In this document: piece after piece, positions 30,901-62,436 of the stretch
How the letters are laid out: the number at the start of each line of letters is the position of its first letter
Numbering within the stretch: position 1 is the first letter of the stretch
From: Lepidurus packardi
Taxonomy: Eukaryota; Arthropoda; Branchiopoda; Notostraca; Triopsidae
Length of the DNA: 64,000 bases
Direction of reading: 5' to 3'
Assembly: GCA_023053545.1 (NCBI GenBank)
Contig: JAKZAN010000086.1
Span: 62,001-126,000, forward strand
Notes under the pieces: generated by a model
What the model saw: only the letters and a program-made list of their open reading frames with translations
The model's database searches: none
Told to the model about the DNA's origin: nothing
Program-made: the position numbers and the translations under genes

Positions 30901-31713
30901 ATGAATTACTGACTTAATTAATGAATTACTGAATTAATTAATGAATTACTGATATAATTAATAAATTACTGACTTAATTAATGAATTCCTGACTTAATTC
31001 ATGAATTACTAACTTAATTAATGAAATACTGACTTAATTCATGAACTACTGACTTAAATAATGAATTACTGACTTAATTAATGAAATACTGACTTAATTC
31101 ATGAACTACTGACTTAATTCATGAATTACTGGCTTAATTAATGAAATGCTGACTTAATTCATGAATTACTGACTTAATTAATGAAATACTGCCTTAATTC
31201 ATGAATTACTGACTTAAGTAATGAATTACTGACTTAATTAATGAAATTCTGACTTAATTCATGAACTACTGACTTAACTAATGAATTACTGACTTAATTC
31301 ATGAATTACCGACTTAATTCATGAATTATGGACTTAATTAATGAAGTAGTGACTTAAATCATGATTTTCTGACTGAATTCATGAATTACTGACTTAATTA
31401 ATGAATTACTGACTTAATTTATGAATTACTGATTTAATTCATGAATTTCCGACTTATTTCATGAATTATGGACTTATTTAATGAAGTACTGACTTAAATC
31501 ACGATTTTCTTACTTAATCCATGAATTACTGACTTAATTCATGAATTACTGATTTAATTCATGAACTATGGACTTAATTAATTAACTACGGACTTAATTT
31601 ATGAATTACTGACTTAATTAATTAACTACAGACTTAATTAATGAATTACTGACTTAATTCATGAATTACTGACTTAATTCATGAACTATGGACCTAATTA
31701 ATTAACTACGGAC
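27917..31713. repeat. Satellite 2 array, second block (copy B of the duplication)
   Basis: This is 20-bp satellite 2 that repeats the variant order of 23321-27130, including landmarks such as AACTACTAAGTATTTCATTATTC and GAATAACAACCTT. It contains no open frame and no other element. Confidence 0.95.
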
Positions 31714-31715
31714 TT
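31703..31715. repeat. Target-site duplication, left of E1
   Basis: TAACTACGGACTT lies immediately before the T-run and recurs at 36921-36933 beyond the 5' end of E1. The last two T's cannot be separated from the tail. The sequence is a satellite 2 variant, so some chance identity is possible. Confidence 0.75.
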
Positions 31716-31739
31716 TTTTTTTTTTTTTTAATAAAAACC

Positions 31740-31763
31740 GGCGTAGGCTCGTGTCTATTGCCT
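31740..31763 (-). other. Conserved 3'-end stem-loop of LINE E1
   Basis: The plus strand reads GGCGTAGGC, then TCGTGTCT, then ATTGCCT. The counterpart stems in E2 and E3 are clean; here one pair has decayed (A opposite C in the sense RNA). It lies ~10 bases from the poly(A) tail, where LINE RTs recognise their RNA. Confidence 0.6.
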
Positions 31764-31907
31764 CGGGCTGTATTATGCGTACGGTTGTACATTGTCAATT
31801 TTTAAAATTGTATAAGTACAAGGGTAGGGTGGGGTGGTATCATGGTACCACCCCATGTGGGGAAGGAGGGGGGGGGAAAGGGAAAGGAGGTGGTTACAAT
31901 GACCACA

Positions 31908-33720
31908 CTATTTGCATAAATCAACTGCCTGTTTGAAGAAGGATACAATTGCAGGGAAGGCTTTTTCTTGGGTCAAGATTTCATGGGTGTTGAAATGGAT
32001 CTTTGATTTGCTTAACTGTAGCAGAAGGAGTGCCCTTTCTTTGTTGAGTGTTCGACAGTGGTAGAGGAGATGTGCCAGGTCTTGTCTGGATTGATCTTGG
32101 CACGGGCAGTGGTCGGAATCCGTTTTTGTGATGCGTTTTAGGTAGCTCTTTGTGGGGAAATGCGTAGTCCTCAGTTGTATTATTTTTGAGATAATCGTTC
32201 TGGGGAGATTTACCTGTATAATTCCTCTGTTTGACGGGCCGTGGATCAGGTCATGTAGGTGGCTAGGGCATGTCTTCCAACGATCTTTCATTGTTCCATT
32301 AGTGAACTATCGATCATGTTTAGGGCAGCCTTTAACGATTCCGGCGGGGATGGCCAAGCTTGTATTGCTAGCTGTCTTGCTCTCTCTGTGCACGTGGTGT
32401 AACGCTTGTGCTTCGGATTATCGCAAGTGCTTTTCCAATCCCACCAATTTCTTGTGGCGTAGTATTTTAGCAGCGTTTTTTTCAGAGCCAGGTCAAAGGG
32501 AAATAGATCAGCCTCCACCTCCAAGGCTACGGTAGGACTCGATGGTAGGGCACCTGTTATGGATAACAGGCCCCTTCTATAGGTTTGAGTAAGGGGTTTG
32601 AGCCTGGACGTGGAGATGTTGCTCCATGCGGGGTAAGCATAACGTATTTTTGATAAGACTGAAGCTTGAAAAAGGGAGTAAAGATGTTTGCATTTGATAG
32701 CTTTTGATATTTTGCTCAGTTTAACAATTCTTTGAAGTACTATGTTGGAATGTGATGCTTGGTGTTTGACGTGGTTGTTCCACGTCAGACGACTTCATAG
32801 ATGACCCCCAGGTATCTTACGGCGTCTTTTGGGAAGGTAGTGGTGTTATCCCATGTTAGTGGTATTGCTTCCTCACTATGTTTCCGGGAGAAGTGGATCA
32901 GTTCTGTTTTGTTTCTTGCGAAATTCAGTTGGAGTCTTTTCCCCCATTTCTCGAGGGTATTGAGATTATTGGAGAGCAGCTTGATGTTCTTTTCGCTTGA
33001 GGTGCCGGATGTGTGTATGAGGAGGTCGTCGACAAAGGCTTGCACTTGTATCCGCATCCTTTTAATAATACTCAAGGCGCTATCGATGTATGTCAGGAAT
33101 AATAGCGGTGAAAGGGGGGATCCCTGCGGCACACCTTTTTTGGTTAAAAACATGTCGCTTTGGTCCTCGCCGAAGACTATGAAAAATCTCCGGTGTTTCA
33201 AGAAGCTATTAATCCATGTTGATAGGGTGCGCGGGGCCTTTAGCCTTCGAAGTACCTGTAGAAGCTTGTTGTGGTCTACGTTATCAAAAGCCCCAGTGAT
33301 TTCGAGTAGGAGCGCTGTGTGGACTTTACCCTTGTCAAAGCTGTGAAGAATTGAATTGCTGAAGTTGACGAGGGCGTCGGTCGTGGATCTAGCTGACCTG
33401 CATCCCCATTGTTGGTTAGACAGCGCATTTTTGTCTTCTAGAAAGGATTTTAGGCGATTCGCTATGGCCTTTTCAAGGATTTTCCCTAGAACTGGTAGAA
33501 GGGAGATGGGGCGAAAGCTCTTGATAGACTCATAGTTCGGTTTTCCGGGCTTGGGGATTGGGATAACTTTTGCTGTCTTCCATATTCTAGGGTAAAAACC
33601 GAGGGAAAGCGAAGCGTTGAAAATGTTGACAACATATGACCTAATCGTTTTCCAGATGTATTTTAGAACTATGGCTTGAATGTCGTCTATTCCGGCTGCT
33701 TTTTTGGGGTGAAGGCCATT
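31908..33720 (-). pseudogene. LINE E1 ORF2: RT and C-terminal domain
   Basis: Fragments of one decayed ORF2 half. 33201-32785 holds KKGVPQGSPLSPLLFLTYID, the catalytic FVDD and the NKTELIHFSRK region. 32524-32288 and 32291-31908 hold the post-RT region and the zinc motif CPCQDQSRQDLAHLLYHC. Frame changes separate these pieces, and one short open piece ends in YEVV right after the RT core. Motif A further upstream has Glu for the catalytic Asp. Non-functional. Confidence 0.8.
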
Positions 33721-34090
33721 CAGAATGTCGGTGATTTCATCGGTGGTAAAAGGTTCGTCGTATGACGAGGTTCTAAGTTTCTTGTTCGTTTTATGGGAAC
33801 AAGTTGTATCTTGAGGGTATACCGGTTCTTCATTTGGAGCCCGTTTAGCAAGTGTATGGCTACATAATTTAGTTTTGAGTAGGCATCTAGAAAGAGTTTG
33901 CCGTCGTTTTGTTTCAGTTGGTCTAGTCGGTTGTTGTTGTTGGTTCGCAAGCGGCTATCTGGTATGACTTCTAGTCTTAAATTTGGTACTAAGATTTGGT
34001 GTATTGGATGTGTGGCTCACAAGCTAACGATGGTCACCGTGTTGACGCTCAACTCTTACTACCTCTCTCTCACCTTTCCTAACTGACCTC

Positions 34091-35221
34091 TCACCAGGCA
34101 AAGCTGCCCTCAAGGTTACATACCAATAGAGGGCATGTAGATGACCTCATACCACTATCTAAATTCCATATTGTCCTGTTATTAGTAGAGTCCATTTGTG
34201 TGGACCAGTAACGTTCCTTGCAATCCCTCGTTTTCCGCCTTTTTCTTTTCCAATCTTCCTCTCTTCGTGGACCGCCAAGTGTGCGATACAGTCGAAGTGC
34301 TGCTGATGCTTCCTTGCGTAGTCGATGAAGTTCGCTATTCCACCATGGATTGATCCGGATGTTAGCAGTTTTCTTTGGGATGTGTTTGTTCATGGCTTCC
34401 TGAATGGTCGTGTTAAGCGTTTTTACAGCTGTGTCGATCGCGTGAGGGTTTGAGAGATTCGAGAACAGCGAACGCGCTTTTAGTAAGCTTTCTGACATCT
34501 GGGAGCGTAAGTCACTCCAGTTTGCTCTATTGTAGCACCACGTGGTTTTTTTTGTTGTGCGGTGGGTAGGGGTTGCGAAAGAGAGGACTATTGCTTTGTG
34601 GTCAGACTCGTTGTAATATTCACCTTCGTTCAGAATGGACCACTCAACCTGTGTGTTTATATCCGGAGACACAAACGTGAGGTCTATGGTGGACTTGTGT
34701 CCACGCTCGTTGTGAAAGGTTGGAGTGTTCCATGCGTTTAATAGCGCGAGGTCGTGTTCCATGACAAAATTTTGAAGGCTAGTTCCCGCGGAGTCAGGGG
34801 CTTTATTTTCTCACAGCCAGTGATGTGCATTGAAGTCCCCTGTGATAGCTATAGGTCCGTTTTGTCCATGCTTTTCCCAAATGGCCGTGAGTAGCAACGT
34901 GATCTCTGTGGTGTGTCTCCTATACAGTATAATAGCAGTTATGGGACGGGCGGTAGCATTGGGCAACCTGAGTGCCACATATAATTCCGTTATCTCCAGG
35001 ACGTAGAAGGGACTGTTTTTATTCCGCAAGAGTAATACTCCTTCATATGCGAGGGAGGAGCTAATCACGTCGAAATCCCCGATGCTTGAGCAAGTCAGAC
35101 TCTGCGGTGGTTCAATTGCTACAACCGTGTCGATTCTCCTGTCTGCAGCTTCGCGGGTCAGTTCAGTGAGTTGGTTAAAGCTTTTTCTTATGTTCTGTAC
35201 CACTAGCTGGAGTTTCAACAT
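34091..35221 (-). pseudogene. LINE E1 ORF2: endonuclease part
   Basis: An AP-type endonuclease (EEP fold) in two open pieces. 35221-34811 starts with ATG at 35221, about 14 bases after the ORF1 stop, and carries the IEPP motif and GDFNAHHW. 34762-34091 carries NERGHKSTIDLTF and ESDHKAIVL, then a linker WWNSELHRLRKEA. A stop and frame change lie between the pieces near 34765-34815. The catalytic-type residues (E in IEPP, the GDFN Asp/Asn, SDH) are all still recognisable. Confidence 0.8.
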
Positions 35222-35234
35222 CAACGGGACGAGT

Positions 35235-36686
35235 TCACCAAGTCACGTGTGGTGGCGCGTATATGGCAACTGTAGTGGAAGGCGGGGTGGTCTCCTCACA
35301 ATTTGCGCATTTTTGGGTTGGGTTAGAGCAAGTACGTGTGTCGTGGCACTGCGCGCATTTGGCACAGGTTGATTCTTTCTCTTTGCAATTCGGAGATGAA
35401 TGGCCGTATTTTTGGCACTTGTAGCACTGGGATAGTGGGTTGATCTTTTTTTCTTCTATCTGCACAACGCGGCTGAATGCAAAGAGGCAAGCTTCGCTGA
35501 TAAGCATGTCTTTCTCCTCGGGATTTGAGCAGGAGTATTTGATGGAGCCAAATTTCTTCTCACTACTAGGGTTGAGCCACGCCATTTTTGATGCAAGGAA
35601 GGAAAAGTTGGCAAAAGTGTTTTTGTCGTTGAAATGACTGGCTATTTCGTTGAAACTGACGTCTCTGGGAATTTGATGAATGACTAGATCGCTATTTGGG
35701 TGCCATTGCACTGATGTGGTTGGTCCTAGAGAGGGAAGAATCTTCGTTTTGAGGACTGCTTCTGCTTTCTGCTTTTCTTGAGGGTTCTTAAAAACCAAAG
35801 CAATATTTCCTTGAATGGTTTTTCTGGCCATTAATGGGTTGATGGGTAAAGCAGTTTTTGGTAGTTGCGCTAAGTCCTTGTCTATGGATGCCAAAAGGTC
35901 TGTGCGATCCCATTTGGTTTGACGCTTAGACTCGTCTTGTTGTTGCAAAATTAGGGTGGATTCCATATCTGGGCTTGAGCGAGTTTCTTTTTTGGCAACA
36001 GTGCTAGAGGTGAGTGGAGATTTTTGAGCAGCTTTTGTACGGCGTTTCAAGATTGTGGTCCAGGATGGGGAAGTACGGGTATTGTCAGGCTTAGAGAGAT
36101 CTATACTCTCCAGCTCAGCAATATCAGCGCTGAAGCTGTTCATCTCGTATCGAGTGAATGTTGGCTTGGATTTAGTTTGAGGCTTAGCTGGCATGGATGT
36201 TGTTAGTTCAGAAATATGGGTTCGGAGACTTCTTATTTCTGCGATTAGCAGAGGGACGAGGGTCGTAAGTGGGGCAAGGACTGCCATCAACGCTGGTGTG
36301 TTATTCTCCTTAGCCAGTATCTTGAAGCTCTCGTTTAGTTGAACCAGGGCTTCCTTCATTGTCAGGGATTCCGCATCAATAAAGGATTCATCCGTGAACG
36401 ATTTCTTGATGGGGAGTTCTGATGGGGATAATTGGAGTTTTGAGGAGTGGGCCAGGGGAGAATTAGGCGTCCTGGCAAGTCTGCATTCTTTGCAATTCTT
36501 GGCTGCACGTTGGTCTTTGATGGAGAGCTTTTTGCATGTAGCGCATTCGGTTTTCTTTTGGTTTTCAGAATTTAGGCTATCAGATTCAAAATCCATGGGA
36601 TCTAGGCTTGATTTCAAGTTGGTTTGGTTAGGTGGTAGGTTGGGTATGGGTGTGGACTCAGGCACTGACGCCGGTTGCTCCGCCAT
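35235..36686 (-). pseudogene. LINE E1 ORF1 (gag-like, 483 codons)
   Basis: The ATG is at 36686. Residues 48-68 form CxxC-x13-CxxC. About 105-165 is a Leu-rich coiled-coil-like region. About 265-415 is the RNA-binding gag-like core, with VIHQIPRDVSFNEIASHF. CCHC knuckles follow: CYKCQKYGHSSPNC (421-434) and CAKCAQCHDTRTC (441-453). A third starts at CANC (460-463) but loses its His and last Cys, and the frame ends 20 residues later. ORF1 is otherwise open over its full length although ORF2 is badly broken. The product would bind element RNA. Confidence 0.82.
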
Positions 36687-36693
36687 TGTTTAC

Positions 36694-36710
36694 CCTGGGC
36701 TTAGCCCGGG
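36694..36710 (-). promoter_or_regulatory. Stem-loop just upstream of E1 ORF1 start
   Basis: CCTGGGC-TTA-GCCCGGG on the plus strand forms a 7-pair stem (one T-G pair) with a 3-base loop, 8-24 bases before the ORF1 ATG. A shorter version, GGGC-TAA-GCCC, lies at 18914-18924 before the E0 ORF1 ATG. Such a structure in the leader could affect ORF1 translation; the role is inferred. Confidence 0.45.
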
Positions 36711-36920
36711 CGCTGTAGGGTGGTGAAAAGATTTCTTAATTTTTATGGTTTTGATATTATGGAACGGGGTATTTTGTTCACAATTTGAACCAGGGAGGAG
36801 AAGGGTGGGCTGGGAATGGTTTTTGGGGTGAATAGGTTAAAAGCAAAGTTAAAAATTTTAAAAATTGGCGGCAGGTCACAAAATTCACTTCTGACTCTGG
36901 CGGAAGCGAACCGCGAACCC

Positions 36921-36933
36921 TAACTACGGACTT
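36921..36933. repeat. Target-site duplication, right of E1
   Basis: This is the second copy of TAACTACGGACTT, directly after the 5' end of E1 (...CGCGAACCC on the plus strand). It continues as satellite 2 (AATTAATGA). Confidence 0.75.
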
Positions 36934-36947
36934 AATTAATGACTTTC

Positions 36948-36992
36948 ATTAATTAATGAATTTCATTAATTAAGTCAGTAATTCATTAACTA
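36948..36992. repeat. Inverted satellite patch beside the E1 5' end
   Basis: The sequence around TTCATTAATTAAGTCAGTAA is satellite 2 in reverse-complement orientation, embedded in a forward array. It starts ~15 bases outside the E1 target duplication. Confidence 0.75.
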
Positions 36993-38246
36993 CGGACTTA
37001 ATTAATGAATTACTGACTTAATTAATGAAATACTGATTTAATTCATGAATTACTGACTTAATTCATGAATTACTGACTAAATTAATTAATTCCTGACTAA
37101 ATTCCTGAATTACTGACATAATTCATGAATTACTGACTTATTTTATGACTTACTGACTTATTTAATTAATTACTGACTTAATTCATGAATTACTGACCTA
37201 ATTAATGAATTACTGACTTAGTTCATGATTTAATGACTTAATTGATGAATTATTAACTTAATTCATGAAGTACTGACTTAATTCATGAATTACTGACTTA
37301 ATTCATGAATTACTGACTTAATTCATGAATTACTGACTTAATTCATGAATTATGGACTTAATTAAAGAAGTACTGACTTATATCATGATTTTCTGACTTA
37401 ATTCATGAATTACTGACTTAATTCATGAATTATGGACTTAATTTATTAATTACGGACTTGTGTAATTGATTACTGACTAAATTAATTAACTACTAACTTA
37501 ATTCATGATTTACTGACTTAATTCATGAACTACTGACTTATTCCGTAAGGAATTAAGGAATTAATCATGATTTACTGACTTAATTCATGAATTACTGACT
37601 TAATTCATGAATGACTGACTTAGTTAATGAATTACTGACTTAAATAATGAACTACTGACTTAATTAATGAATTCCTGACTTAATTCATGAATTACAACCT
37701 TAATTCATGAATTACTGACTTCATTCATGAATAACAACCTTAATTCATGAATTACAACCTTAATTCATGAATTACAGATTTAATTCATGAATTACTAACT
37801 TAATTAATGAAATACTGACTTAATTCATGAATTACTGACTTAAGTAATGAATTACTGACTTAATTAATGAAATTCTGACTTAGTTCATGAATTACTGACT
37901 TATTTCAAGAATTATGGACTTAATTAATGAAGTACTGACTTAAATCATGATTTTCTGACTTATTTCATGAACTACTGACTTAAGTAATGAATTACTGACT
38001 TAATTCATGAATTACTGACTTAATTCATGAACTACTGACTTAATTAATGATTTACTGACTTAATTCATGAATTACTGACTTAATTCACGAATTACTGACT
38101 TAATTCATGATTTACTGACTTAATTCATGAATTACTGACTTAATTAATGTATTACTGACTTAATTAATGTATTACTGACTTAATTCATGACTTAATTCAT
38201 GAATTGCTGACTTTATTCATGAATTACTGACTTAATTCATGAATTA

Positions 38247-38251
38247 CTGAC
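38247..38251. repeat. Gypsy B target-site duplication (left)
   Basis: CTGAC just outside the left LTR, repeated at 50404-50408. Removing the element restores a normal satellite 2 unit (ATTACTGACTTAATTC). Confidence 0.88.
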
Positions 38252-38364
38252 TGTTATGGTCGAATCCAAGAATAATCTGTATTCCCCGGGAGGCGGGGCC
38301 ACTCCCTCATAGAGGTCGTCCCCCAAGCACGGTGGCACCGTGCCACGCTACCAAGCCCACAACA
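38252..38364 (-). repeat. LTR of Gypsy B (left, 113 bp)
   Basis: Begins TGTTATGG and ends ACAACA. It contains the stem-loop GCACGGT-GGC-ACCGTGC. It matches 50291-50403 except at two positions. CTGAC precedes it. Confidence 0.93.
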
Positions 38365-38407
38365 TGTCCCCTTGTCAGCTTACATACATTAAGTTTACGA
38401 GATCAAA

Positions 38408-39322
38408 TCAAAATAATATTGCGGGGTTACCATAAGAGAGATTAGATTTCACGTCAAAGATCTTTTTCTGTCTGCACTTTCTCCCCGTTCTCGTAACATG
38501 TTGCCCATCTCCTGCTCCCCCTCCTTCCTCCGCCTTTCTTTCACTCATTGTTTGGGTGCGCTGGTAAATTATTGGTTCCGATGGCACCCTGATAGTGGTT
38601 TGGAACCTCTTGAGGTGGACTCTGTTCCGTCGGAAAATTGCTCCATTAGACATTTTCACCTCATAAGATCTCGGGCCAATTTGTCGAAGGACCGTGCCGT
38701 CTTCTTTCCACAATTTCGTCAGATGGTGCTGGACCAGGACCCTTGTTCCCGGAGCAAGAGGGGGCAACTCCTTCGCTGTCTTGTTGTAATGCTTCTCCGA
38801 TTCACATGCTGCTTTGCGGCTAATAGCATTCTCCTTTTGATGTTGGAATGCAGGTAAGAAGTCTTGGAGTTTTCTTCCCATAAGAAGCTCAGCTGGCGAC
38901 CTTCCCAATTTGAGAGGGGTGTTTCGATAAACCAGTATTCCTTGTTGAAATTCCGTCAGGGACTTCGACTTCTTGAGAATTCTTTTTACAACTTTCACAG
39001 CAGCTTCGGCGAGTCCCTTTGACTTCGGATAGTAGGGACTAGAGGTTACGTGGTCAATGTTCCATTCTTCTAAGAAATCTTGGAACTTGTGACTAGTAAA
39101 CTGCGTGCCGTTATCGGAACGAAGCGTGTCAGGGGCTCCGTGTCTTGCAAAGGCGTCTTCCAATGCGCGTATTACCGCCTCAGGTGTGATTGACTTCAAC
39201 TGATATACTTCCGGATAAAACGAATAATAATCGGTCAGGATAAGATAATTCTTCCCGTCATAATGGAAAAGGTCCGTTGCTAACATCTGCCAAGGTCTCT
39301 TTGGCTTTTCGGTTGACATCAA
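38408..39322 (-). pseudogene. Gypsy B integrase part
   Basis: Catalytic core of a retroviral-type integrase: ATDLF, RSDNGTQF and GLAEAAVK supply the D, D and E of the DDE triad. A C-terminal region follows with GTRVLVQHHLTKLWKEDGTV and a basic tail. It would join element DNA to the target. Part of a broken element. Confidence 0.85.
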
Positions 39323-39411
39323 CGGCTCCTTCTGCTACTGGAAAACTTCAAACAGGTTTCACATCCCACAATCAGCTGACGAATTTGGTTTGAGATTCCC
39401 GGCCAGTAAAC

Positions 39412-40980
39412 TTAATCTCTCGCCCTCTTCAGGCACTTTTCCATATCCTGGTGTCCTACATGGATCTTCTGGAGAATACTCGTACGTAAGGACTTAGGGA
39501 TAAATACTTGTTCGCCTTTCAAGATGGGGTCGTTCACGACTGAAAGTTCCGACTGGACGTTCCAAAAGGGTAAAAGGATTGGGTTCGCGTTCTTCTTTAC
39601 ACCCCAACCTTGCAAAATCGCTTTCTTCAATTCTTGGCAGACCAGGTCCCTTTTTGTCTCCTCGACGATCTCCCTTAGCCTGGTGGGCGTGGCTGGGATT
39701 GCCGCTTGTATGGCCTCTACGTAGGCCGCTACCTGGTCTCCAAGTTCTTCGTCCAAAGGCTCTGCTTCCCTCGTTGTGGCTCTACTCAAAGCATCGGCGA
39801 ACATCTCCTTCCCAGGAACCCACTTAGCCTCGAACCGAAACTGCATAAGCCGCAGACGCATCCTCTGAATTCTTGGTGACATTTCGCTCAGGTCTTTCGA
39901 ATTCAGGATCGGTATTAGAGGTTTATGATCTGTCAGGATCACAAAATCTGCTCCTAGAATGTAGTAACGGAACTTCTGGCAAGCCCAACAGATTGCGAGA
40001 CACTCTTTCTCTATCTGGGCATACCGCTGCTCCGTTGAAGCAAATGCCACCGGTCTCTTGATTCCATCTGGCTGCTCTTGGACTAGGGCGGCTCCCAAAC
40101 CGGATGAACTACTATCTGCTATGACAGTGGTGGGGTATGACGGGTTGTAAAATCCCAACACTCTGTCTGACTGTATCTCCCTTTTGGCATCTTCAAAAGA
40201 CTGTCTCTGAGGTTCTTCCCACACCCACTGGTTCCTAGCCGAAAGTAGATGCGTTAGAGCCCTCTCAGCTTCCGCTAACCGTGGTGAAAACTTGGACATC
40301 TGGTGTGTCAAGCCTAGGAATCTACGCAGCTCAGACGCGTCATTCGGCTCCGGGTAGTTGGCAATGGCTGCGACCTTCTCTGGATCTGCCCTCACTCCGT
40401 CTTTGCTGACCACATGTCCCAGAAACTGGACCTGGTTTACACGAAACTGACATTTCTTCTTGTTCAGCGTTACGTGGCAGTCTTCCAAACGTCGCAGAAC
40501 ATTACCCAGCTGCTCATCGTGAGTCTTCTCTTCTGCTCCAATCAAAATGTCATCCATTTGACATACGACTCCCTCCAACCCAGTGAGGATCTTGGACATT
40601 CTCTTTTGAAAGTGTTCAGGAGCGCTGCTAATTCCATAGGGTAACCTATTGCATTGGTAGCGACCTATCGGTGTAATGAATGTACACAGGCTCTTCGAGC
40701 CCTCTGCCAACGGAATCTGCTAAAACCCGCAGTTGGCGTCCAACTTGGATAAAACCGTACATCCCGAGAGTTTCGCCAAGGACTCATCCGTTGTCGGCAT
40801 AGTATACCTCTCCCTTACAATGTTTTCATTAAGCTTCTTCAGGTCAATGCAGAGCCGGACCGATCCGTCTGACTTCGGCTCGGGAACGCATGGAGCGCAC
40901 CATTCCGTTGGCCCGTCAACTTTTGAGATAACGCCCATCTTCTCCATTCTTTGCAGCTCCTCAATCGTTGGCTTTAACAA
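39412..40980 (-). pseudogene. Gypsy B reverse transcriptase and RNase H region
   Basis: RT motifs are visible (VRLCIDLKKLN, RLPYGISSAPEHFQKRM, and QMDDILI as the catalytic DD box). An RNase H follows, with TVIADSSSSGLGAAL, EKECLAICWACQKF and TDHKPLIPIL, and then the integrase zinc-binding start near 39412-39450. The region is given as one span of a broken element. Confidence 0.85.
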
Positions 40981-41038
40981 CGGGGCCGAAATTCTCCTCG
41001 GAGTATGAAGACAGTAGGGCTGCGCATCAGTCTTGAGT

Positions 41039-42049: not shown

Positions 42050-42174
42050 CCCCTGCCACCTTCAGACCATTATAAGCCTTTAAAACGTCGTCGCTAAAAC
42101 AGGAACGCAGCACAGCTTTCTGGAAAACACTAGGCTGGGCTTCTAAGTCCGCCAAGATCACGTAATCAGAACAC

Positions 42175-50276: not shown

Positions 50277-50290
50277 GGCAGGCTGCGCCA
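50277..50290 (-). other. Primer-binding site of Gypsy B
   Basis: TGGCGCAGCCTGCC follows the 5' LTR directly on the minus strand. TGGCGCAG is a form seen at this position in other animal Gypsy elements. The priming tRNA is not assigned. Confidence 0.6.
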
Positions 50291-50403: not shown

Positions 50404-50408
50404 CTGAC
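50404..50408. repeat. Gypsy B target-site duplication (right)
   Basis: CTGAC just outside the right LTR, matching 38247-38251. Satellite 2 continues after it. Confidence 0.88.
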
Positions 50409-52328: not shown

Positions 52329-52352
52329 TAATGAAGTACTTACTTAAATCAT

Positions 52353-52363
52353 GATTTTCTGAC

Positions 52364-52365
<2 letters not shown>
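52353..52365. repeat. Target-site duplication, left of E2
   Basis: GATTTTCTGACTT directly before the T-run, repeated at 57323-57335. The TTTTCTGAC variant is a minority satellite 2 form, so the match is more telling than for a consensus unit. Confidence 0.82.
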
Positions 52366-52396
<31 letters not shown>

Positions 52397-52403
52397 GGAT
52401 ATT

Positions 52404-52426
52404 GGCGTGAGCATAGCTCGTTGCCT
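52404..52426 (-). other. Conserved 3'-end stem-loop of LINE E2
   Basis: Plus strand GGCGT-GAGC-ATA-GCTC-GTTGCCT: a 4-pair stem with a 3-base loop, ~14 bases from the tail. The flanking GGCGT and TTGCCT are shared with E1 and E3, while the stem bases differ but still pair. Confidence 0.68.
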
Positions 52427-52564
52427 CCCTCGTCTATTAGCCTTGCTGTCCTACATATGTTACACTCTTTACAATCGTACATTCACGTACACATTATACC
52501 TAAAAGGTAATGAAGAAATAAAAATAAAGAGGGAGAAGAAAAGAAAAGCGTATGGCGGATGGTA

Positions 52565-55500
52565 TTAAGTTTGTAATTTGTTCATTGCCGAGTTAAAAAA
52601 CGTCCCGAGGGGAACAAAGGCTTTTGGCTCTGTGAGGAGAACTTGGGGGCTAAAGTGCAATTTCATTCTTGATAGCTGTCGTAAGAGAATTGCTCTGTTT
52701 TTATTAACTCGTCTACACTTGAAAAATATATGTGGTAAATCTTGGTTCGAGTAATTGTTACAAGCACATGTCATGTCATTAGTCTTCTTTATGCGGAAAA
52801 GATATTTTTTAGTCGGGAAATGTGTAGAACGTAGTCTTATTATCGTCGCAATAGTCTTTCTGTCTATTTTCGATTTACAGATTGATAGCTTTGAGGGGAC
52901 AACACCTAAATCACGGAGAGGAGACGGGGAATCTGACCACCTTTCTCTCCATTTTTCCATTACTTTATTTTTTACTAACTCGGGTGTGTAACTGTTCCCA
53001 TCTGGGAAATTACTGAGTTTCAATGTTCGGATAATGTAGGAACAAGACCTATACCGTCTATGCTCCGGTTCTGAAGCTGTAGTGTCTGGTGGGCAAGTTA
53101 AGCTAAACCTTAAAATGCGTTCTAAGGACATAAGATCCAAGGGGGGTATGCCCGCTTCAACTTCTAGGGTCGCTGTAGGAGTAGTTCTAAGGGTGCCTGT
53201 AATTAGCAGAAGGGCCTGTCTGTGAAGCGTCCGTATAGCTGGTAATTTTGTTAGGTCGACATTACAGAAAGCAGGGATTCGATAGAGAATCTTCGGATAC
53301 AACAAGCTTGTTACCAGGGTTCTTACTTGATATGTTTGGATTGAAGGGATGAATTTGATCAGTTTCCGAAGCCTGTTTAGCACGAGGTTTCCTTCCACTG
53401 CTAGATGGGATGCCTGCTTATTCCAGTTAAGCTTACTGTCGTAGCGCAGTCCCAGATACTTAACTTCCTGTTTGGGTTCTATCATGGTTCCACTCCACTC
53501 TAGTGGAGTTGTATCAGTAACTCTCTTTCTTGTAAAATGAATGAGTTCTGTTTTGTTTTTTGAAAAATTGAGACCTAGTAGTTTACCCCATTTAACAATA
53601 GCTTTGACCGCACTTTTTAATAGTCTCACATTAACTCTGCCTGTCGACCCAGATACAATTAAGATTAAATCGTCTGCGAATGCTAGTATTTTTATACGTT
53701 TTGATTTCACTAGGTTGAGTACACCATCGATGTACATTAGAAATAGTATTGGTGAAAGGGGTGACCCCTGTGGCACCCCTTTTTTAATGGCAAAAGTCTC
53801 ACTAGTTACCGAGCCCTGGCAAAGATATCCAGTCCTGTTTACCAGGAAACTGCTCAACCAATTGGTTATTATGGGTGGTAACTTTTTCTTTCTTGCTTTT
53901 TCTAATAATTTCTTATGGACGACATTATTAAACGCATCTTCAATATCAAGCAATAACGCCGAGGTGACCTTGCGATTGTGAAAATCTTTAAGAACTGAGT
54001 CGGAAAAAGACAAAAGGGCATTAACAGTGGACCTGTGGGGTCTAAACCCCCATTGGTTGTGAGACAGCAAGTTTTTGGACTCAAGGTATGTCCCAATTCT
54101 AACAGCGATGGCTTTCTCTAGTATTTTTCCAATGTGGGAAAGAAGTGCAATGGGTCGAAAGCTCTTACTCGTGGAGTAATCCGTCTTCCCTGGTTTGGGG
54201 ATCGGGAGTATTTTTGACACCTTCCAAATTTTAGGGAAATAGCTTAAGTCAATACTAGCGTTGAAAAGTTTAGTTACGTAATTATCAATAACATGCCATG
54301 TCTTCTTGATTATGATGGGTTGGATGCCATCTTCGCCAGGTGCCTTTAACGGGGGTAATTTATTAACTATTTCTGTAAGTTCCTTAATGGTAAAGAGTGC
54401 CTGTTGTCTTTGTCTAGTCGAGTATGTCTTTCTCTTTATTGTACGTCTTATTTCATTCCTTGAAGTTATAGATTGTTCATCTGTGTTAAACATTTTCTTT
54501 GCTAGAAGATTTAGTTTACCTGTTACAGAGGTCAAAGGATCGTTATTATCGTCTCGTAGAAGATCTAGTGCGTCCTTTTGAGTCGTTATTCGAGTTTTTC
54601 TGTCAAGATTCCATAGTATACGTGAGTCTGGATTGTTTAATTGAGTTGTCCAGTATTTTCCCCTCGCTTGTCGACGCTTTAACGTATATGTATTGCGTAA
54701 GTCTTTCCATACTCTTTCCTTTGTTTTATCCGGGGACGCTTTATAACACTTTAAATTACGAGCCACTTCTTTACGTAGCGTTGATAGTTCCTCGTTCCAC
54801 CATGAGTTTTTGCGACCTGTGAACGACTTCTTTGGGATACACAACTTTATAGATTCGCGCATTGTTTCCGATAGATAGTTGGCTGCAGAGTCTAGCTGCT
54901 CTGTTGACTTGATATCAAAGAGTTTGTCTTCCAGTTGTAGTTTTTCTGAAAGGTAGCTGCTTAGTTGCGACCAATTGGCTCTCCTATAGTTCCACACTTC
55001 CCTGGTTGGTTCTTCTACTGGTGTCGAAATTTCTAGGAGAAGAGCCTTGTGATCGGAGTAATTGTGGAATGTAATATCATCTAAAATTCGCAGCTTTAGA
55101 AGATGTATTATTTCCGGGGAGGCAAACACTAGGTCTAACGTTGAAGTTTGACCTTTCTCATTGTGGAATGTAATTTCGTTTCTGCAGTTCAACAATGTTA
55201 ATCCTTTTTCCGTGACCAATTCGTAGAGTTGTTCTCCTGGTTTGTCAGGAGGCTTGTCTTCCCAGCTCCAATGGTGAGCGTTAAAGTCACCCCATACGAT
55301 AATCGGCAGGTTGGTATCTTTTAAGTCTTTCCATATTTCTTCTAGCAATTTTGTGGTATCTGAGGATTGACTTCTGTACAGAGTTATTAGGAAAATAGGT
55401 ATGTTTCGGGGAGGGCATATCTTAGTTATTGTGTATAGCTCACTGCATCTCACAATTTGCATATGTTGAGTGCGGTGGTGTTTGAAGCAAACCGCGCCAA

Positions 55501-55738
55501 TATAGTTTGTAGTAGGGAGGAAGGGATGAAATCCTTGATTTGGCAGGTTCAGTAGGTTCAGTGGTGGCTCAAGAATAAATGTAGCTAGTGAGTAAAGATT
55601 GTTTGCCTCCCGGAGGGTTTCAGATAGTTGTAGGAAGCTTTTCCGTATGTTATGCAGGAGTACTCTCGTAGGGTGGGGTTTTTGGTAGGACCGGGATGGG
55701 TTACTCAGGGTGTCGAAGGGGTCAAGTTTTTGGTTGAG
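52565..55738 (-). CDS. LINE E2 ORF2: endonuclease-reverse transcriptase
   Basis: The frame is open from 55738 to the stop at 52565 (1057 codons). The first ATG is only at 55462, already inside the endonuclease, so the protein must begin upstream. The upstream part reads LLHNIRKSFLQLSETLREAN and ILEPP, matching the E1 ORF2 start. In coordinates from the ATG: GDFNAHHW 58-65 and YSDHKA 135-140 (endonuclease active site), WWNEELSTLRKEV 221-233, FRPIALLSHIGKILEKAI 435-452, motif A LLLDIEDAFNN 503-513, KKGVPQGSPLSP 560-571, catalytic FADD 595-598, and zinc motif CACNNYSNQDLPHIFFKC 899-916. All key residues appear present. It nicks target DNA and reverse-transcribes element RNA there. The frame overlaps the end of ORF1 by 17 bases in the +1 frame. 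Confidence 0.88.
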   Translation of the reverse strand, partial: LNQKLDPFDTLSNPSRSYQKPHPTRVLLHNIRKSFLQLSETLREANNLYSLATFILEPPLNLLNLPNQGFHPFLPTTNYIGAVCFKHHRTQHMQIVRCSELYTITKICPPRNIPIFLITLYRSQSSDTTKLLEEIWKDLKDTNLPIIVWGDFNAHHWSWEDKPPDKPGEQLYELVTEKGLTLLNCRNEITFHNEKGQTSTLDLVFASPEIIHLLKLRILDDITFHNYSDHKALLLEISTPVEEPTREVWNYRRANWSQLSSYLSEKLQLEDKLFDIKSTEQLDSAANYLSETMRESIKLCIPKKSFTGRKNSWWNEELSTLRKEVARNLKCYKASPDKTKERVWKDLRNTYTLKRRQARGKYWTTQLNNPDSRILWNLDRKTRITTQKDALDLLRDDNNDPLTSVTGKLNLLAKKMFNTDEQSITSRNEIRRTIKRKTYSTRQRQQALFTIKELTEIVNKLPPLKAPGEDGIQPIIIKKTWHVIDNYVTKLFNASIDLSYFPKIWKVSKILPIPKPGKTDYSTSKSFRPIALLSHIGKILEKAIAVRIGTYLESKNLLSHNQWGFRPHRSTVNALLSFSDSVLKDFHNRKVTSALLLDIEDAFNNVVHKKLLEKARKKKLPPIITNWLSSFLVNRTGYLCQGSVTSETFAIKKGVPQGSPLSPILFLMYIDGVLNLVKSKRIKILAFADDLILIVSGSTGRVNVRLLKSAVKAIVKWGKLLGLNFSKNKTELIHFTRKRVTDTTPLEWSGTMIEPKQEVKYLGLRYDSKLNWNKQASHLAVEGNLVLNRLRKLIKFIPSIQTYQVRTLVTSLLYPKILYRIPAFCNVDLTKLPAIRTLHRQALLLITGTLRTTPTATLEVEAGIPPLDLMSLERILRFSLTCPPDTTASEPEHRRYRSCSYIIRTLKLSNFPDGNSYTPELVKNKVMEKWRERWSDSPSPLRDLGVVPSKLSICKSKIDRKTIATIIRLRSTHFPTKKYLFRIKKTNDMTCACNNYSNQDLPHIFFKCRRVNKNRAILLRQLSRMKLHFSPQVLLTEPKAFVPLGTFFNSAMNKLQT

Positions 55739-57020
55739 CTAGGGTTTGGGTTAGCGGGTTGTAGGGGTTGCGTTTCTGTCTTTCGGCGACACGTACTGGG
55801 CAGCTATTGTCGAACGAGAAATGGTTGCCATCGCAGTTACTGCATTTCTTTTGATTGTTAGAACAGTCTCTTGTCGTATGTCTGCCCGCGCATTTTCCAC
55901 AAGATGGTTGAGGTTCTTTGCAGTGGGCTGCCGTGTGGCCATATTTTTGGCAGTTGTAGCACTGAGTGAGGAGCTCTTGACGACGATCTTCCACCTGGAC
56001 GGATCTGCTATAAGCATAAACGTAACCTCGACTGAGTAGCCTTGCTTTAGCTTCCGCCGTCGGACATGTGAATAGAAGTGAACCAAATGTTTTGGTGCTG
56101 TCTGAATTTATCCAACGCAGTGAGTCAGCCGTGAATTCAACTTGTGTTGATGTGTTTTTCTTATTCAGGTGGTTCGCAATTTCTTCGAAGTTGGGCTGCC
56201 TGGGTATTTGGTGGATCACGACCACATTACGGGATTTCGGTCGGATTGCCTTAATTCTGCCAAATGAGTCTAGTGTGGTATCTTGAAGGAGGAGCTCTGT
56301 TTTATTCCTATCTTTTACGCTATCCAGTGTAATTTCAATGTGTTCTTTAGTTTTCCGAGCCAGGATGATATTGGTAGCGTTGGAGCCACATTTTTTTTGT
56401 AGATCCTTGTCCAATTTCTGGAGTAGATCTTCTCTTTTAACAAATTCTTTCCTTTTCTCTTCATCCTGTTGTTGAATGTAGACCGTGAGCTCGTCTTGTC
56501 GTTTTCTTTGTGGGCTTGACTGCCTTTGTTGAATGGGGGTTCCAGAGGGCTTATACGGTAGAGGTCGTTTGCGGTTCACTGTAGACCACGGGCCTTCCAG
56601 TGGAGATGGTGTAGCCGGTGTAGGGTTCAATTAGATACCGTGTTTAGCAACAATTTCCTTTAAGGACTTCATTTCTAACAGTAATTGGGGGACGCTTTCT
56701 GCAATTGGTAGTAAATCATCAATTTTGCAAGTGAGAATGGCCACTTTATTCAATAGCTCTTCATTCTGGTCTTTAAGCATTTCTAGCATTTCAGTTGAAC
56801 TGAACGTGTTCGAGTTGTCTCGCACCCTTTTCTTCGGGCGTTCAATTGGGACTGTATTGGTTAGGTTGTTCTCCGTAAATTTGTGGCGTACACTTGGGAC
56901 TGTATTGGTTGGGTTGTTCTCCGTTAGTTTGGTACACGCATAGCACAATTTGCTGTTGGTTGAAACCGGATCAAAGAAACTGTCGCAGGACTCACAACGG
57001 GTACCTGTTTGTTCTTCCAT
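55722..57020 (-). pseudogene. LINE E2 ORF1 (gag-like), one in-frame stop
   Basis: The frame is open from 57161; the preferred ATG is at 57020 (MEEQTGTRCESC), by likeness to E1 (MAEQ). Near the N-terminus is CxxC-x13-CxxC, then a 16-codon tandem duplication, a coiled coil (MLEMLKDQNEELLNKVAIL), and a single TAA at 56631-56633 in the same frame. The rest follows: a gag-like core with VVVIHQIPRQPNFEEIANHL, then three knuckles (CYNCQKYGHTAAHC, CGKCAGRHTTRDC, CSNCDGNHFSFDNSC). The stop falls between coiled coil and core. It is either a recent mutation or a sequencing error. The end overlaps ORF2. Confidence 0.82.
56848..56945 (-). repeat. 48-bp tandem duplication in E2 ORF1
   Basis: GGGACTGTATTGGTT occurs at 56848 and 56896. 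The 48-bp period adds 16 codons in frame (TENNPTNTVP then TENNLTNTVP), between the zinc module and the coiled coil. Confidence 0.8.
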
Positions 57021-57322
57021 GTTTTCTGTTAGACTTTCCTTGTTTGCTGAGTCACTGTCAACAACACCCCTCCTCTCTCCGGAGGAGGGTTGGGGAGAGC
57101 GTAGCATGTCACCATACAAGGGATAAGTAAAAACTATCAGAGCTTGATTAGTTAGTATCAAAATAAGTCAACTTGTAACTCAATCGATTAGCGAGATTGT
57201 TTGCAATCCAATGAGGTAACTCACAGGTACACTGTACGATTGAACCACTGAAAATATTTGGAAAGCTAGGGAACTAACTGAAAACACGTCTACTTCAGAC
57301 GTTGTCCGCCGAAGGGCCTTCC
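57021..57322 (-). other. LINE E2 5' leader
   Basis: About 300 bases from the element's 5' end to the preferred ORF1 start. It includes the stem-loop at 57068-57089 and an upstream in-frame extension of ORF1 (ATGs at 57161 and 57107) that may be untranslated. An internal promoter is expected for a LINE but no specific motif was identified. Confidence 0.55.
57068..57089 (-). promoter_or_regulatory. Stem-loop upstream of E2 ORF1 start
   Basis: CCCTCCTC-TCTCCG-GAGGAGGG is a perfect 8-pair stem with a 6-base loop, about 48 bases before the preferred ORF1 ATG. E1 and E0 carry GC-rich stem-loops of different sequence at a similar place. A translational role is inferred. Confidence 0.5.
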
Positions 57323-57335
57323 GATTTTCTGACTT
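57323..57335. repeat. Target-site duplication, right of E2
   Basis: GATTTTCTGACTT directly after the E2 5' end (...GGGCCTTCC on the plus strand). Satellite 2 continues with AATTCATGAAG. Confidence 0.82.
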
Positions 57336-58391
57336 AATTCATGAAGTACTGACTTAAATCATGATTTTCTGACTTAATTCATGAATTACTGACTTAATTC
57401 ATGAATTATGGACTTAATTTATTAATTACGGACTTGTGTAGTTAATTACTGACTAAATTAATTAATTACTAACTTAATTAATGAATTACTGACTTAATTA
57501 ATGAATTACTGATTTAATTAATGAATTGCTGACTTAATTAATGAATTCCTGACTGAATCATGAATTACAACCTTAATTCATGAATTACAACCTTAATTCA
57601 TGAATCACTGACTTAATTCATGAATTTCTAACTTAATTAATGAAATACTGACTTAATTCATCAACTACTGACTTAAGTAATGAATTACTGACTTAATTAA
57701 TGAACTACTGACTTAAGTAATGAATTACTGACTTAATTAATGAAATACTGACTTAATTAATGAAATACTGACTTAATTAATGAATTACTGACTTAATTCA
57801 TGAATTATGGACTTAATTATTGAAATACTGACTTAAATCATGATTTTCTGACTAAATTCATGAATTACTGACTTAAATCATGATTTTCTAACTAAATTCA
57901 TGAATTACTGACTTAATTCATGAATTACTGACTTAATTAATAAATTACTGACTTAATTAATTAATTACTGACTTAATTCAATTAATTCATGAATTATGGA
58001 CTTAATTAATTATCTCCGGACTTAATTAATGAATTACTGACTTAATTCATGAATTTCCGACTTATTTCATGAATTATGGACTTAATTAATGAAGTACTGA
58101 CTTGAATCACGATTTTCTTACTTAATCAATGAATTAATGACTTAATTCATGAATTACTGACTTAATTCATGATTTACTGACTCAATTTATGAATTACTGA
58201 CTTAAATCATGAATTACGGACTTGATTAATGAAATACTGATTTAATTCATGAATTACTGACTAAATTCATGAATTACTGACTTAATTCATGAATTACTGA
58301 CTTAATTCTTGAATTAATGATTTAATTCATGAATTACTGACTAAATTAATTAATTAATGACTTAATTAATGAATTACTGACTAAATTAATT
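57336..58391. repeat. Satellite 2 array, fifth block
   Basis: About 1.05 kb of satellite 2 between E2 and E3, with the usual variant mix. No gene. Confidence 0.95.
58381..58391. repeat. Target-site duplication, left of E3
   Basis: CTAAATTAATT before the T-run, repeated at 62426-62436. The low-complexity A/T sequence makes its exact length uncertain. Confidence 0.65.
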
Positions 58392-58410
58392 TTTTTTTAA
58401 TTGAATTGCG

Positions 58411-58435
58411 GGCGTAGGCTGAAAGCCTGTTGCCT
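58411..58435 (-). other. Conserved 3'-end stem-loop of LINE E3
   Basis: Plus strand GGCGT-AGGCT-GAA-AGCCT-GTTGCCT: a perfect 5-pair stem with a GAA loop. Relative to E2 two stem pairs are changed on both sides. Confidence 0.68.
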
Positions 58436-58652
58436 GACTTGTTTATTGTCAAATCATTTACATGATTTAGTCTTAAAAACTTTATAACAAATTAGGGGGG
58501 GGGGATAGGGAAGTGGGTAGCGGTAAGAGTAGGAGGAGCAGTATCAAGTAATATGTTTCCGTGTTATTGGGAGGTTGAGGTGCAGAAAGTCCGTTTGGTC
58601 TCGGAAAGAAAGAGTTTAACAGCAGTGAAAAGTTTTGGGTTGGTGAGAAAGT

Positions 58653-61559
58653 TCAACGGATTGAAGTGCAATTGAGAGAACTGTGAGCTCTAATCAGTTT
58701 TGCTCGATATTTGTTGAGCCATCGGCAATGAATAAAAACATGGTGTAAGTCTTGGACGGCATGATCTGGGCAAGGGCAGGAATTTGTAAGCGAACGTTTG
58801 ATTCTTTGCAAATAGCTCAACGTTGGGTAGTGGGTAGAGCGGACCTGTATAAGAGACGATACAATGTTTCTGGGGTGTTTTGTTTTTATAATTGGTTTTA
58901 AGCCAGGCTTAACTCCAAGGTGCTTCAGATGAGTTGCTGAAGGAAGACTTTCCCATTCTTTTGTCCATTCAGTGATCAGAGTTTTGTGTATAGTTTGGTG
59001 AGAGACTTTGGGGATATAGTCAGTAGTCTCGAAAGTGGTCTTGGTCAAGTCGAAAAGTCTGTTTGAGTTTGTGATGTACCGTTTGGTCTTGTTTCCTGTC
59101 TGTGCCAGTCGTTCCGTTCCTAGTCTGGAAGATACGTAGCGAAGTCCAGATTCTTTGATGAGGAGTTTTAGTGGTAAGATGTCGGTTTCAACTTCTAATG
59201 TTGATGTCGGAGTGGTTTTGAGTGCTCCAGTGATTGCTAATAGGGCTTGCCGATGGATCGAGGAGAGTGGTCGTAAGGATGTTGGAGTAATGTTAAACCA
59301 GGCTGGGGATGCGTACAGTAGCTTGGAGTAAACTGTCGCCGAAATGAGTGTCTTTAGCCGACTACACGAGATAGTTCTGTTTTGCTTAGCAATAGTGCGA
59401 ATACGATGAAGTGACTTGTTTATAGCTGCTGCTAGGGATCTTACATGGGCTGACCAGTCAAGCTTCTTATCTAAAATTAAACCCAAATATCGTACGGAAT
59501 CGCTCGGAAGTATCGTGGTGTTTTGCCAGGTTAACGGGGTAAAGTCGGGTGTCCGTTTCCTGCTGAAATGAATCAGTTCAGTTTTTTCAGTTCTGAATTC
59601 CAACTGGCAGTGGTTGCTCCACAACGTTAGTGCTTTTAGGGAATTTGCTAGCAGTTTAGTGTTAACTTTACCCGAAGAGCCAGACGTGTGCAGGATGAGG
59701 TCGTCTGCAAAGGCAATGATTTTAACTCGTTTTCCTTTGATAATTTGTAGCGCGCCATCGATGTATAATAAGAATAGGAGAGGGGACAGGGGGGATTCTT
59801 GTGGTACTCCTTTTGGAAGAGTGACTAAATCACTCGCAGATCCATTGTGGAAAGTATACGCATCTCTATTGGTCAAGAAACTGCTAATGAGCTTAGTATA
59901 TTGAGATTTGACGTGTTTTTTTCGTACGATTTGTATAAGCTTATTATGATTCACATTGCAAAAGGCTCCTTTTATGTCTAGCAGTAGTGCCGTTGTAACT
60001 TTCCGTTTATCGAAGCCATTGAGGATGGAGTCACTAAGTGATACTAGTGCGTCGGTGGTCGATCGGGAGGGCCTAAAGCTCCATTGGTCGTTGTTTAGAA
60101 GTTTGCCCTTTTCTAAAGAGTCGGAGAGTCTTTTGGAAATATCTTTTTCAAGCATTTTCCCTAGGATAGGAAGTAATGCAATGGAACGAAAACTCTTAAT
60201 AGATGTGTAGTCCTTTTTGTTTGGTTTCGGTATAGGGATGACTTTTGCACGTTTCCAGATAGTTGGAAAGTAACCAATAGTGAGGGATGCATTGTAAATT
60301 CGCAGGATAGTTTTGTCGATTGTGTTCCATATATTTTTGACGACGATGGCTTGAATGTCATCATGGCCGGCTGCTTTTAAAGGTGGGATATGCTCCTGGA
60401 TACCTTGAATTTCGCTCAGGGTAAACGGGGTGGCCGGATTTCTGAGGACTTTGTAAGGTCGTGCAGGAGTGAAGGTAACAGGTATGTGTGGCTGTCCGTT
60501 GATTAAGTCAGTAGCTAAGAAATTTAATTTATCCACTGGTTCGGTAAAAGGGATTCCGTCTTTGTTCTGGAGTTGATCTAGGCATGCTTTCGCTGTTGTT
60601 TGGCGGAGGTTCCTTTCCCAATTCCATAGCACACGATTGTCCGGTGTTAGTAGTTTGTTGTTCCAATATTGTTCTCGAGTCTTTCGAACTTCCGCTCTGT
60701 ACTGGTTTCTTGCTCTTTTCCAGTTTTGCTCGCTGCTTGGAGTTTGCGAGACCTGGTGAAGTCTATGTAAGCTGTCAGTTTGCTTTCGCAAGGATTTTAG
60801 ATTAGAGTTCCACCAAGGGTTCGTCTTGTTCCCGATTTTCCGTTTTGGGATGTTACGCTGCATGGCACGCGTGATTAGTCTGGTTAGGCAGCATGTGGCT
60901 GCGTCAATGTCTTGTGGAGTATGTAAGTCAGAGAGAACTGAGACATTTTTTAAGATGTCTGAAGCCAAGTCTGTGTTCAGTTGCAGCCAGTTAGCTTTGG
61001 GGTAGTTCCAAGCGTGTACAGAAGGTGCTTTACTATGTGAAAGGAAGTCTATGGTTGTTGCGGCGTGGTCCGATTCGTTCACAAAATTGTCGTCGTTTAG
61101 CAGGTGGTGTTTAACTTGTGTGAGAATTTGGGGCGTCGCAAAGGTCAAGTCCAATGTGGAGCAGTGTCCTCTTTCGTTTTTAAAAGTTGGAGTGTCCCAT
61201 TTGTTTAATAAGTCAAAGTTATGTCTGTGTGCGATGTCAGTCAAGTGGTTGCCTGCTTCGTCTGGCGATTTTTTCTCCCACCACCAGTGGTGGGCATTGA
61301 AATCGCCTGTGAGTACTATGTGTGGGCTCAGATGTTTACGTCTCTCCCATATAGTCCGGAGTAAAGTATCGGTGTCTGCCGTGTGTCGCCTGTATATTCC
61401 AATCACCGTAATAGGGAGGGCATGTGGGGAAGTGATTTGGAGGATGGCGTAGAACTCGTCTACCCAGTTGACTGTGACATTGCTGTTCAATTTGTACAGG
61501 ATTATGAGCCCTTTGTATTCGGAGTTGGGCACCGATACGTAGAAACCTTGGTAAGTCAC
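58653..61559 (-). pseudogene. LINE E3 ORF2: endonuclease-RT with altered motifs
   Basis: A 968-codon open stretch with a GTG first codon, internal to the original ORF2. GDFNAHH 85-91 and ESDHAAT 162-168 mark the endonuclease. RT follows: motif A LLLDIKGAFCN (525-535), GVPQESPLSP (584-593) and FADD (617-620), then the C-terminal CPCPDHAVQDLHHVFIHC. Compared with E2, PQGSP has become PQESP, WGFRP has become WSFRP and FRPIA has become FRSIA; such changes in core RT motifs probably impair activity. The endonuclease N-terminus lies upstream (61560-61690) in other frames, with a TGA near 61564, so the true start of the protein is lost. Confidence 0.82.
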
Positions 61560-61690
61560 AGAATCAATCTTTGGGGTGGTTTGTGTATAATAACCGCCTC
61601 GCAGCCTCTGTCGTTTGCTTCTTTGACTGTTTCGAACATTTGGTCCCTTTTTTCTGACATTGTGGACAAGAATGGAAGTGTGTATTGGAT

Positions 61691-62340
61691 TTATTTGTGA
61701 GTTGAGGTCGCAGGGAGTATTGCCTTAGGCCTGGATGGGCAGACTGAATCGAATGCGAAATGGGCTTCCTTACAGTTCGCGCATTTTTTGGTCGAGCTTT
61801 TGCAGGTCCTTGTGTCATGATGCTCTGCACATTTGGCACAGTTGGGTGACTTTTTACAGTTGGCTGGCGTGTGGCCAAACGCCTGACAGTTATAACATTG
61901 AAGTATGTCTGATGAACGCGAATCTTCAACTTGAACAACCCGGTTGAAGGCGAAGAGAGCACCTTCGTTAAGAAGTTTAAGTTTTTCAGCTGATGAAGAG
62001 CATACGTATTGGATTGAGCCGCAGGCTTTGGTACTGCTTGGGTTCAACCATCGAGCATTTGCTGACAGGAAGGTTACGAAAGTGTCCGCGTTCTTTTCTG
62101 TCACATGGGAGCATATTTGGTCTAGGATTTGGTCCCGAGGTAGTTGATGTATTATGAGACGTGTAGCTTGCGATACAGTCTTTACGGGTATTAATTCAGG
62201 CAGAGTAGCCGTTTTTAGGCCTGCTTCCGCTTTGGACTTGTCTTCCTGGCTCTTGAAGGTTAAGGCCAGGTTGCCTTGTCTTGTCTTGCGGGCCAAGACT
62301 GGGTTCGGGATGGAAGGATTAATTTGATGGAGATCCTTTT
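61691..62340 (-). pseudogene. LINE E3 ORF1 C-terminal half
   Basis: Open over 201 codons to a stop at 61691. The gag-like core reads ARKTRQGNLALTFKSQEDKS and LIIHQLPRDQILDQICSHV, followed by three knuckles: CYNCQAFGHTPANC, CAKCAEHHDTRTC, CANCKEAHFAFDSVC. Upstream, 62297-62425 continues ORF1-like sequence (ITQQDIEKRNK) with a frame change, and the element then ends by 5' truncation. This copy keeps the full third knuckle that E1 has lost. Confidence 0.8.
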
Positions 62341-62425
62341 CGACAACTTGTAATAGGTCCCGTTGTGGTATTATTTGTTACGCTTTTCGATGTCTTGCTG
62401 GGTAATAATCAAAGTTATTTCCCGG

Positions 62426-62436
62426 CTAAATTAATT
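62426..62436. repeat. Target-site duplication, right of E3
   Basis: CTAAATTAATT after the truncated 5' end (CCCGG on the plus strand), followed by GAATGACTGAC, a satellite 2 variant. Confidence 0.65.

Follow-up and report, generated by a model that had tools for sequence, protein, structure and literature searches.

Are long interspersed nuclear elements (LINEs) that lie inside a short-unit satellite directed to it by a dedicated insertion preference, or does the array simply gather them? The question is raised by a stretch of 64,000 nucleotides from Lepidurus packardi (contig JAKZAN010000086.1, positions 62,001 to 126,000; hereafter the window), in which three LINEs, named E1, E2 and E3, interrupt an array of 20-bp units, satellite 2. 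A first-pass annotation had suggested that they represent one lineage targeted to this satellite. We found that satellite targeting is not established, and that the insertions are probably those of ordinary LINEs into an array that attracts them passively. No special targeting has to be invoked, because the array is rich in TT^AA (the caret marks the nick), the short and generic core of LINE endonuclease sites. The array, the three elements with their open reading frames (ORFs) and their target-site duplications are the following.

Satellite 2: blocks within 19507..63954, plus strand, 20-bp unit TACTGACTTAATTCATGAAT, 17298 bp counted.
E1 left target-site duplication: 31703..31715, plus strand, TAACTACGGACTT, 13 bp, exact, nick GACTT^AATT.
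E1 LINE body: 31716..36920, minus strand, T-run at the low end, ORF1 with a CCHC cluster (by eye), ORF2 broken.
E1 right target-site duplication: 36921..36933, plus strand, exact copy of the left one.
E2 left target-site duplication: 52353..52365, plus strand, GATTTTCTGACTT, 13 bp, exact, nick GACTT^AATT.
E2 LINE body: 52366..57322, minus strand, ORF2 open over 1057 aa, coding for endonuclease and reverse transcriptase.
E2 right target-site duplication: 57323..57335, plus strand, exact copy of the left one.
E3 left target-site duplication: 58381..58391, plus strand, CTAAATTAATT, 11 bp, exact, nick TAATT^GAATG.
E3 LINE body: 58392..62425, minus strand, 5'-truncated inside ORF1, ORF2 open over 1023 aa.
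E3 right target-site duplication: 62426..62436, plus strand, exact copy of the left one.

The earlier observation that the three elements are inserted in satellite 2 on the minus strand, each with a T-run and a duplication of 11-13 bp, was confirmed at all junctions. The duplications are the maximal exact matches flanking each element, and the T-runs past them are 14 (E1), 24 (E2) and 7 (E3) long. The insertion site described as common to E1 and E2, GACTT^AATT, also holds, as does the nick of E3 located 8 bases further on; because the T-run abuts the T's of the target, every nick could sit as many as 2 bases further left. A duplication made of satellite sequence is weak proof when taken alone, since random pairs of CTT sites in satellite 2 share a 13-mer in 14% and a 12-mer in 17% of cases, and random pairs of sites ending in AATT share an 11-mer in 12%. 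In satellite 2, the 12-mer of E1 is found in 23 copies and the 13-mer of E2 in 14 copies, against 601 copies of GACTT, and the 11-mer of E3 is found in 10 copies against 1324 copies of AATT. As these variants are uncommon and a T-run stands at every junction, the duplications were taken as real. Excision of E2 with one duplication restores the 20-bp phase; excision of E3 leaves a one-base shift. The right flank of E1 is locally irregular, and a short inverted stretch of satellite 2 was seen by eye just past the 5' end of this element (36966-36989).

The number of available sites was then compared between satellite 2, the transposon DNA of the window and a second array.

Satellite 1: 3320-16883, 20-bp unit, 13.5 kb.

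By eye, the two satellites resemble each other, and both are built of 20-bp units. The null model was an unspecific TT^AA endonuclease acting on the window without E1, E2, E3 and the E1 copy described below, in which E3 is counted as a TT^AA event although the nick given by its maximal duplication precedes GA. Satellite 2 has 60.8 TT^AA sites per kb per strand and satellite 1 has 49.7, against 2.2 for long terminal repeat (LTR) element DNA and 4.8 for LINE bodies; relative to the transposon DNA of the window, satellite 2 is enriched in the core about 13-28 times. The target contains 3537 TT^AA site-strands, 2100 in satellite 2, 1348 in satellite 1 and 89 elsewhere; the satellites together thus hold 3448 of the 3537. 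Within satellite 2, GACTT^AATT represents the largest TT^AA context (470 of 2099), and a shared register can therefore follow from the repeat itself. Under this null model, the probability of finding all three insertions in satellite 2 is 0.21, that of finding all three on one strand is 0.25, and that of all three lying in satellite 2 and two or more of them belonging to one class is 0.095. If a class is defined by the strand and one flanking base on each side, two events of satellite 2 share one with P=0.18.

The coding regions indicate what kind of elements are involved. In ORF2 the domain Exo_endo_phos precedes RVT_1, in a single frame in E2 and E3 and in pieces in E1, where a stop interrupts the endonuclease frame and further frame breaks follow. 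With these two domains, and with an A-tail and a target-site duplication in three of three cases, the elements are LINEs of the APE type. A cluster of CCHC motifs forms the end of ORF1 (by eye; the support from Pfam zf-CCHC is weak). ORF1 of E2 has one in-frame stop, also read by eye. The N-terminus of the E3 endonuclease could not be aligned by eye to that of E2. A Jockey-like LINE would combine a CCHC-rich ORF1, the lack of RNase H and a tree position with Jockey. No RNase H family was listed for ORF2 of E2 and E3 at E values up to 5, with filters that drop most weak matches. A clade in which RNase H may be lost by some members is still compatible with this result. The ORF2 segments of E1, E2 and E3 are 33-56% identical in pairwise comparisons; they thus represent three families of one related group and not one family. 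RNase H is reported from clades of the I group such as R1 and Tad1 (PMC4640811).

The three elements also have a frame in common near their 3' ends, GGCAAY...CGCC, located 10, 14 and 12 nt before the A-tail in E1, E2 and E3, respectively.

E1 3' hairpin frame GGCAAY...CGCC: 31740..31762, minus strand, inner stem weak.
E2 3'-terminal hairpin: 52404..52425, minus strand.
E3 3'-terminal hairpin: 58411..58434, minus strand.

The frame occurs at five sites of the window, namely in E1, E2, E3, the E1 copy and at 39686-39703. In E2 and E3 it forms a hairpin, with inner stems that differ, and the inner part folds well, being equalled by 25 of 500 shuffled sequences for E2 and 6 of 500 for E3; in E1 it folds weakly (214 of 500). 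In LINEs of the stringent type, a conserved 3'-terminal stem-loop is required for reverse transcription.

These data are consistent with the following series of events. E1, E2 and E3 would be ordinary LINEs encoding endonuclease and reverse transcriptase, inserted independently by target-primed reverse transcription, and each RNA may be recognised through its 3' end, as the common hairpin frame and the A-tail suggest. The first nick, as read at the junctions with an ambiguity of 2 bases, fell on the plus strand in an A/T-rich sequence after two T's, and the free 3' end would have paired with the A-tail. The second cut fell 11-13 bases away and gave the duplications seen at each element. The pairing of the nicked TT end with poly(A), already put forward by the first-pass annotation, is plausible. 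The same is expected of every LINE that has a poly(A) tail and nicks behind T's, and for this reason the pairing does not discriminate between the explanations. The satellite would gather LINEs passively, as it holds nearly all the TT^AA sites of the region, and relaxed selection together with array amplification may then retain and copy the insertions, one copied junction being present in the window.

Other LINE pieces and one LTR nest bear on this reading.

E1' (copy of the 3' part and left flank of E1): 27132..27916, minus strand, segmental duplication.
E4: 17549..19506, minus strand, internally deleted relative whose 5' end abuts satellite 2, ends approximate (by eye).
E5: 16884..17524, plus strand, C-terminal part of ORF2 from a relative, next to satellite 1 without a gap, approximate ends.
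LTR nest in satellite 2: 38252-50403 (also delimited as 38247-50408), about 12 kb.

The blocks of satellite 2 are split by E1, the LTR nest, E2, E3 and the E1 copy (27132-27916). The junction at 27132 was considered as a fourth independent insertion and rejected, as it shares the left flank and the junction of E1 and lies within a segmental duplication; blocks within 24621-27916 and 29123-32496 are 99.3-100% identical. This copy shows that the array has been amplified, in agreement with passive capture. The same reading is supported by the position of E5, beside satellite 1 and on the opposite strand, and by LTR elements that also reside in the arrays, one in satellite 2 and another abutting satellite 1 (by eye). 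E4 and E5 have both lost their 3' junctions. They are placed tail to tail at the border between satellites 1 and 2 (16884-19506), and a short TTGGGTCGCCACACGGCT repeat is found near their junction. Twin priming, the mechanism of 5' inversion, was rejected for this pair, since the pieces are tail to tail. A higher-order repeat of 1821 bp, in about 3 copies (19419-24694), carries the 5' end of E4 along; its 100% identity over 3455 bp at a lag of 1821 reflects either a very recent amplification or an assembly effect.

Several results weigh against passive capture and lend themselves to a satellite-targeted lineage, whose endonuclease would read several bases of the unit (approximately TGACTT^AATT) in one orientation, like TRAS and SART in telomeric repeats, and of which E3 would be a slipped or relaxed member. 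The three families belong to one related group and are inserted in one array and on one strand, two of them in one register, and every LINE piece recognised in the window resembles the others. Under the TT^AA null, the joint probability that all three insertions are in satellite 2, share a strand and include two of one class is 0.039, and 0.024 when the 9-base context is required; two events of satellite 2 share the same 9-base context with P=0.095, and with a uniform null P is 0.044 for all three being in satellite 2. From these low values, E1 and E2 give some weight to a register preference. Satellite 1, although nearly as rich in TT^AA, is not interrupted by any LINE over its 13.5 kb. Beyond the 5' end of E4, satellite 2 resumes at ACTACGGACTT, which by eye fits the register of E1 and E2 if a duplication of about 11 bases is assumed; this clue is weak because the 3' junction of E4 is gone. 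As for passive capture itself, a pure TT^AA rule does not describe E3, whose nick at the maximal duplication is followed by GA; satellite 2 has few TTGA sites (37 on the plus strand). The whole pattern is thus mildly unusual under the TT^AA null, but it was singled out after being seen, and the window is largely satellite. E3 is off register and speaks against a strict register, E5 is found next to satellite 1 in the opposite orientation, and once three insertions in satellite 2 are given, one strand and a shared class are expected with P=0.19 (0.11 at the 9-base context). We consider a satellite-targeted lineage unlikely. Its wider form, a LINE group adapted to the 20-bp satellite in which a TGACTT^AATT preference common to several families co-evolves with the array while amplification multiplies the 3' ends, appears equally doubtful.

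Insertion could also be guided by chromatin, the elements being drawn to heterochromatic or centromeric chromatin while a loose A/T preference sets the nick. LTR and LINE elements occupy the same arrays, as this would predict, and the LINE Celine of poplar, for which such a behaviour is reported, is enriched at centromeres and shows no more than a weak nick motif (PMC11288735). Composition alone may suffice to explain the window, however, and the locus is known here from its nucleotides only, so that this explanation seems no less improbable than targeting. Copying by satellite amplification, with E1, E2 and E3 descending from one or two events, is true of the junction at 27132, a segmental copy of E1. 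For the three elements themselves it is very improbable: they differ in family and in duplication, a divergence that already refutes a common event, and no block of at least 120 bp links their flanks among those listed with exact 50-base seeds. Passive capture by an array rich in TT^AA therefore remains the reading that we favour.

Among the known systems, the telomere LINEs TRAS1 and SART1 of silkworm resemble E1-E3 as LINEs residing inside a short tandem repeat, and the solved TRAS1 endonuclease matches ORF2 of E3 at 1.8e-7 and that of E2 at 1.7e-4. SART1, which has a poly(A) tail, is described as inserting between T and A of TTAGG (PMC7265360). TRAS and SART are each described with one insertion site, whereas here, among the copies of the window alone, two of three share one site and its core is the generic TT^AA. 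Celine offers another likeness, being a LINE accumulated in repeat-rich centromeric DNA; its target-site duplications measure 10-30 bp and a 'safe haven' has been proposed for it (PMC11288735). The two differ in that 52 of the 58 full-length Celine copies lie in other transposons and in that the enrichment of Celine was shown by CENH3 mapping, whereas E1-E3 are known from their satellite context alone. YURE of sea squirts, a LINE reported to insert occasionally in a U2-derived satellite, and Togen of fish, reported to insert in a (TG)n microsatellite, are discussed in PMC4640811 among lineages with a restriction-like endonuclease, unlike E1-E3, which are of the Exo_endo_phos type. Human L1 and E1-E3 are alike in the order of endonuclease and reverse transcriptase, the A-tail and the TT^AA core, and PDB chains labelled LINE-1 ORF2 give best matches of 1.1e-16 for E3 and 4.6e-24 for E2; a chain labelled only RNA-directed DNA polymerase matches E3 ORF2 at 4.7e-17. 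The two differ in the CCHC motifs of ORF1 (by eye) and in the 3'-terminal hairpin frame common to E1-E3. They also differ in the site: the L1 nick consensus is TTTTT/AA in the abstract of PMC8565326, and the satellites contain hardly any TTTTAA (3 and 4 sites).

No eukaryotic relatives of these LINEs were found in the viral contigs, genome contigs and plasmids scanned. ORF2 of E3 gave no match in viral contigs. An alignment of ORF2 of E2, ORF2 of E3 and one E1 piece gave 68 pattern matches in viral contigs, none of which was confirmed, and 236 in genome contigs, of which 48 were confirmed, all in records with bacterial titles and at 23-34% identity; these are probably reverse transcriptases of group II introns or of a similar kind. 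In plasmids, E3 ORF2 matched 131 records, all below 60% identity, and three of the five matches listed are annotated as group II intron reverse transcriptase. The satellite patterns gave no match in viral contigs, five satellite strings sought in literature text gave none either, and there was no Rfam match at the gathering score and no tRNA. No LINE specific for a 20-bp satellite is described in the literature titles and abstract openings surveyed. If targeting were true, E1-E3 would represent a lineage of LINEs with specificity for a satellite of short unit, parallel to the telomere-specific LINEs, and would offer a handle on the coexistence of satellites and transposons. An AT-rich satellite with a short unit can nevertheless mimic target specificity, because many hundreds of copies of the endonuclease core stand in one and the same register, and claims of register need to be tested against TT^AA counts.

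Concerning the LTR elements, the nest in satellite 2 has short terminal repeats of about 112 bp that are 98% alike, and a 5-bp flanking duplication, CTGAC, that adjoins the E1/E2 register. It probably contains more than one element, because reading frames are found on both strands. Inside it, at 42223-50075, a unit of 3683 bp with gag and pol frames is repeated in tandem in just over 2 copies; the identity of 100% over 4170 bp indicates a recent duplication or an assembly effect. At the other end of the window, an LTR-retrotransposon pol fragment (1-3320; reverse transcriptase, with weak protease matches) adjoins satellite 1, and its final bases before the array, ACAACA, resemble by eye the end of an LTR.

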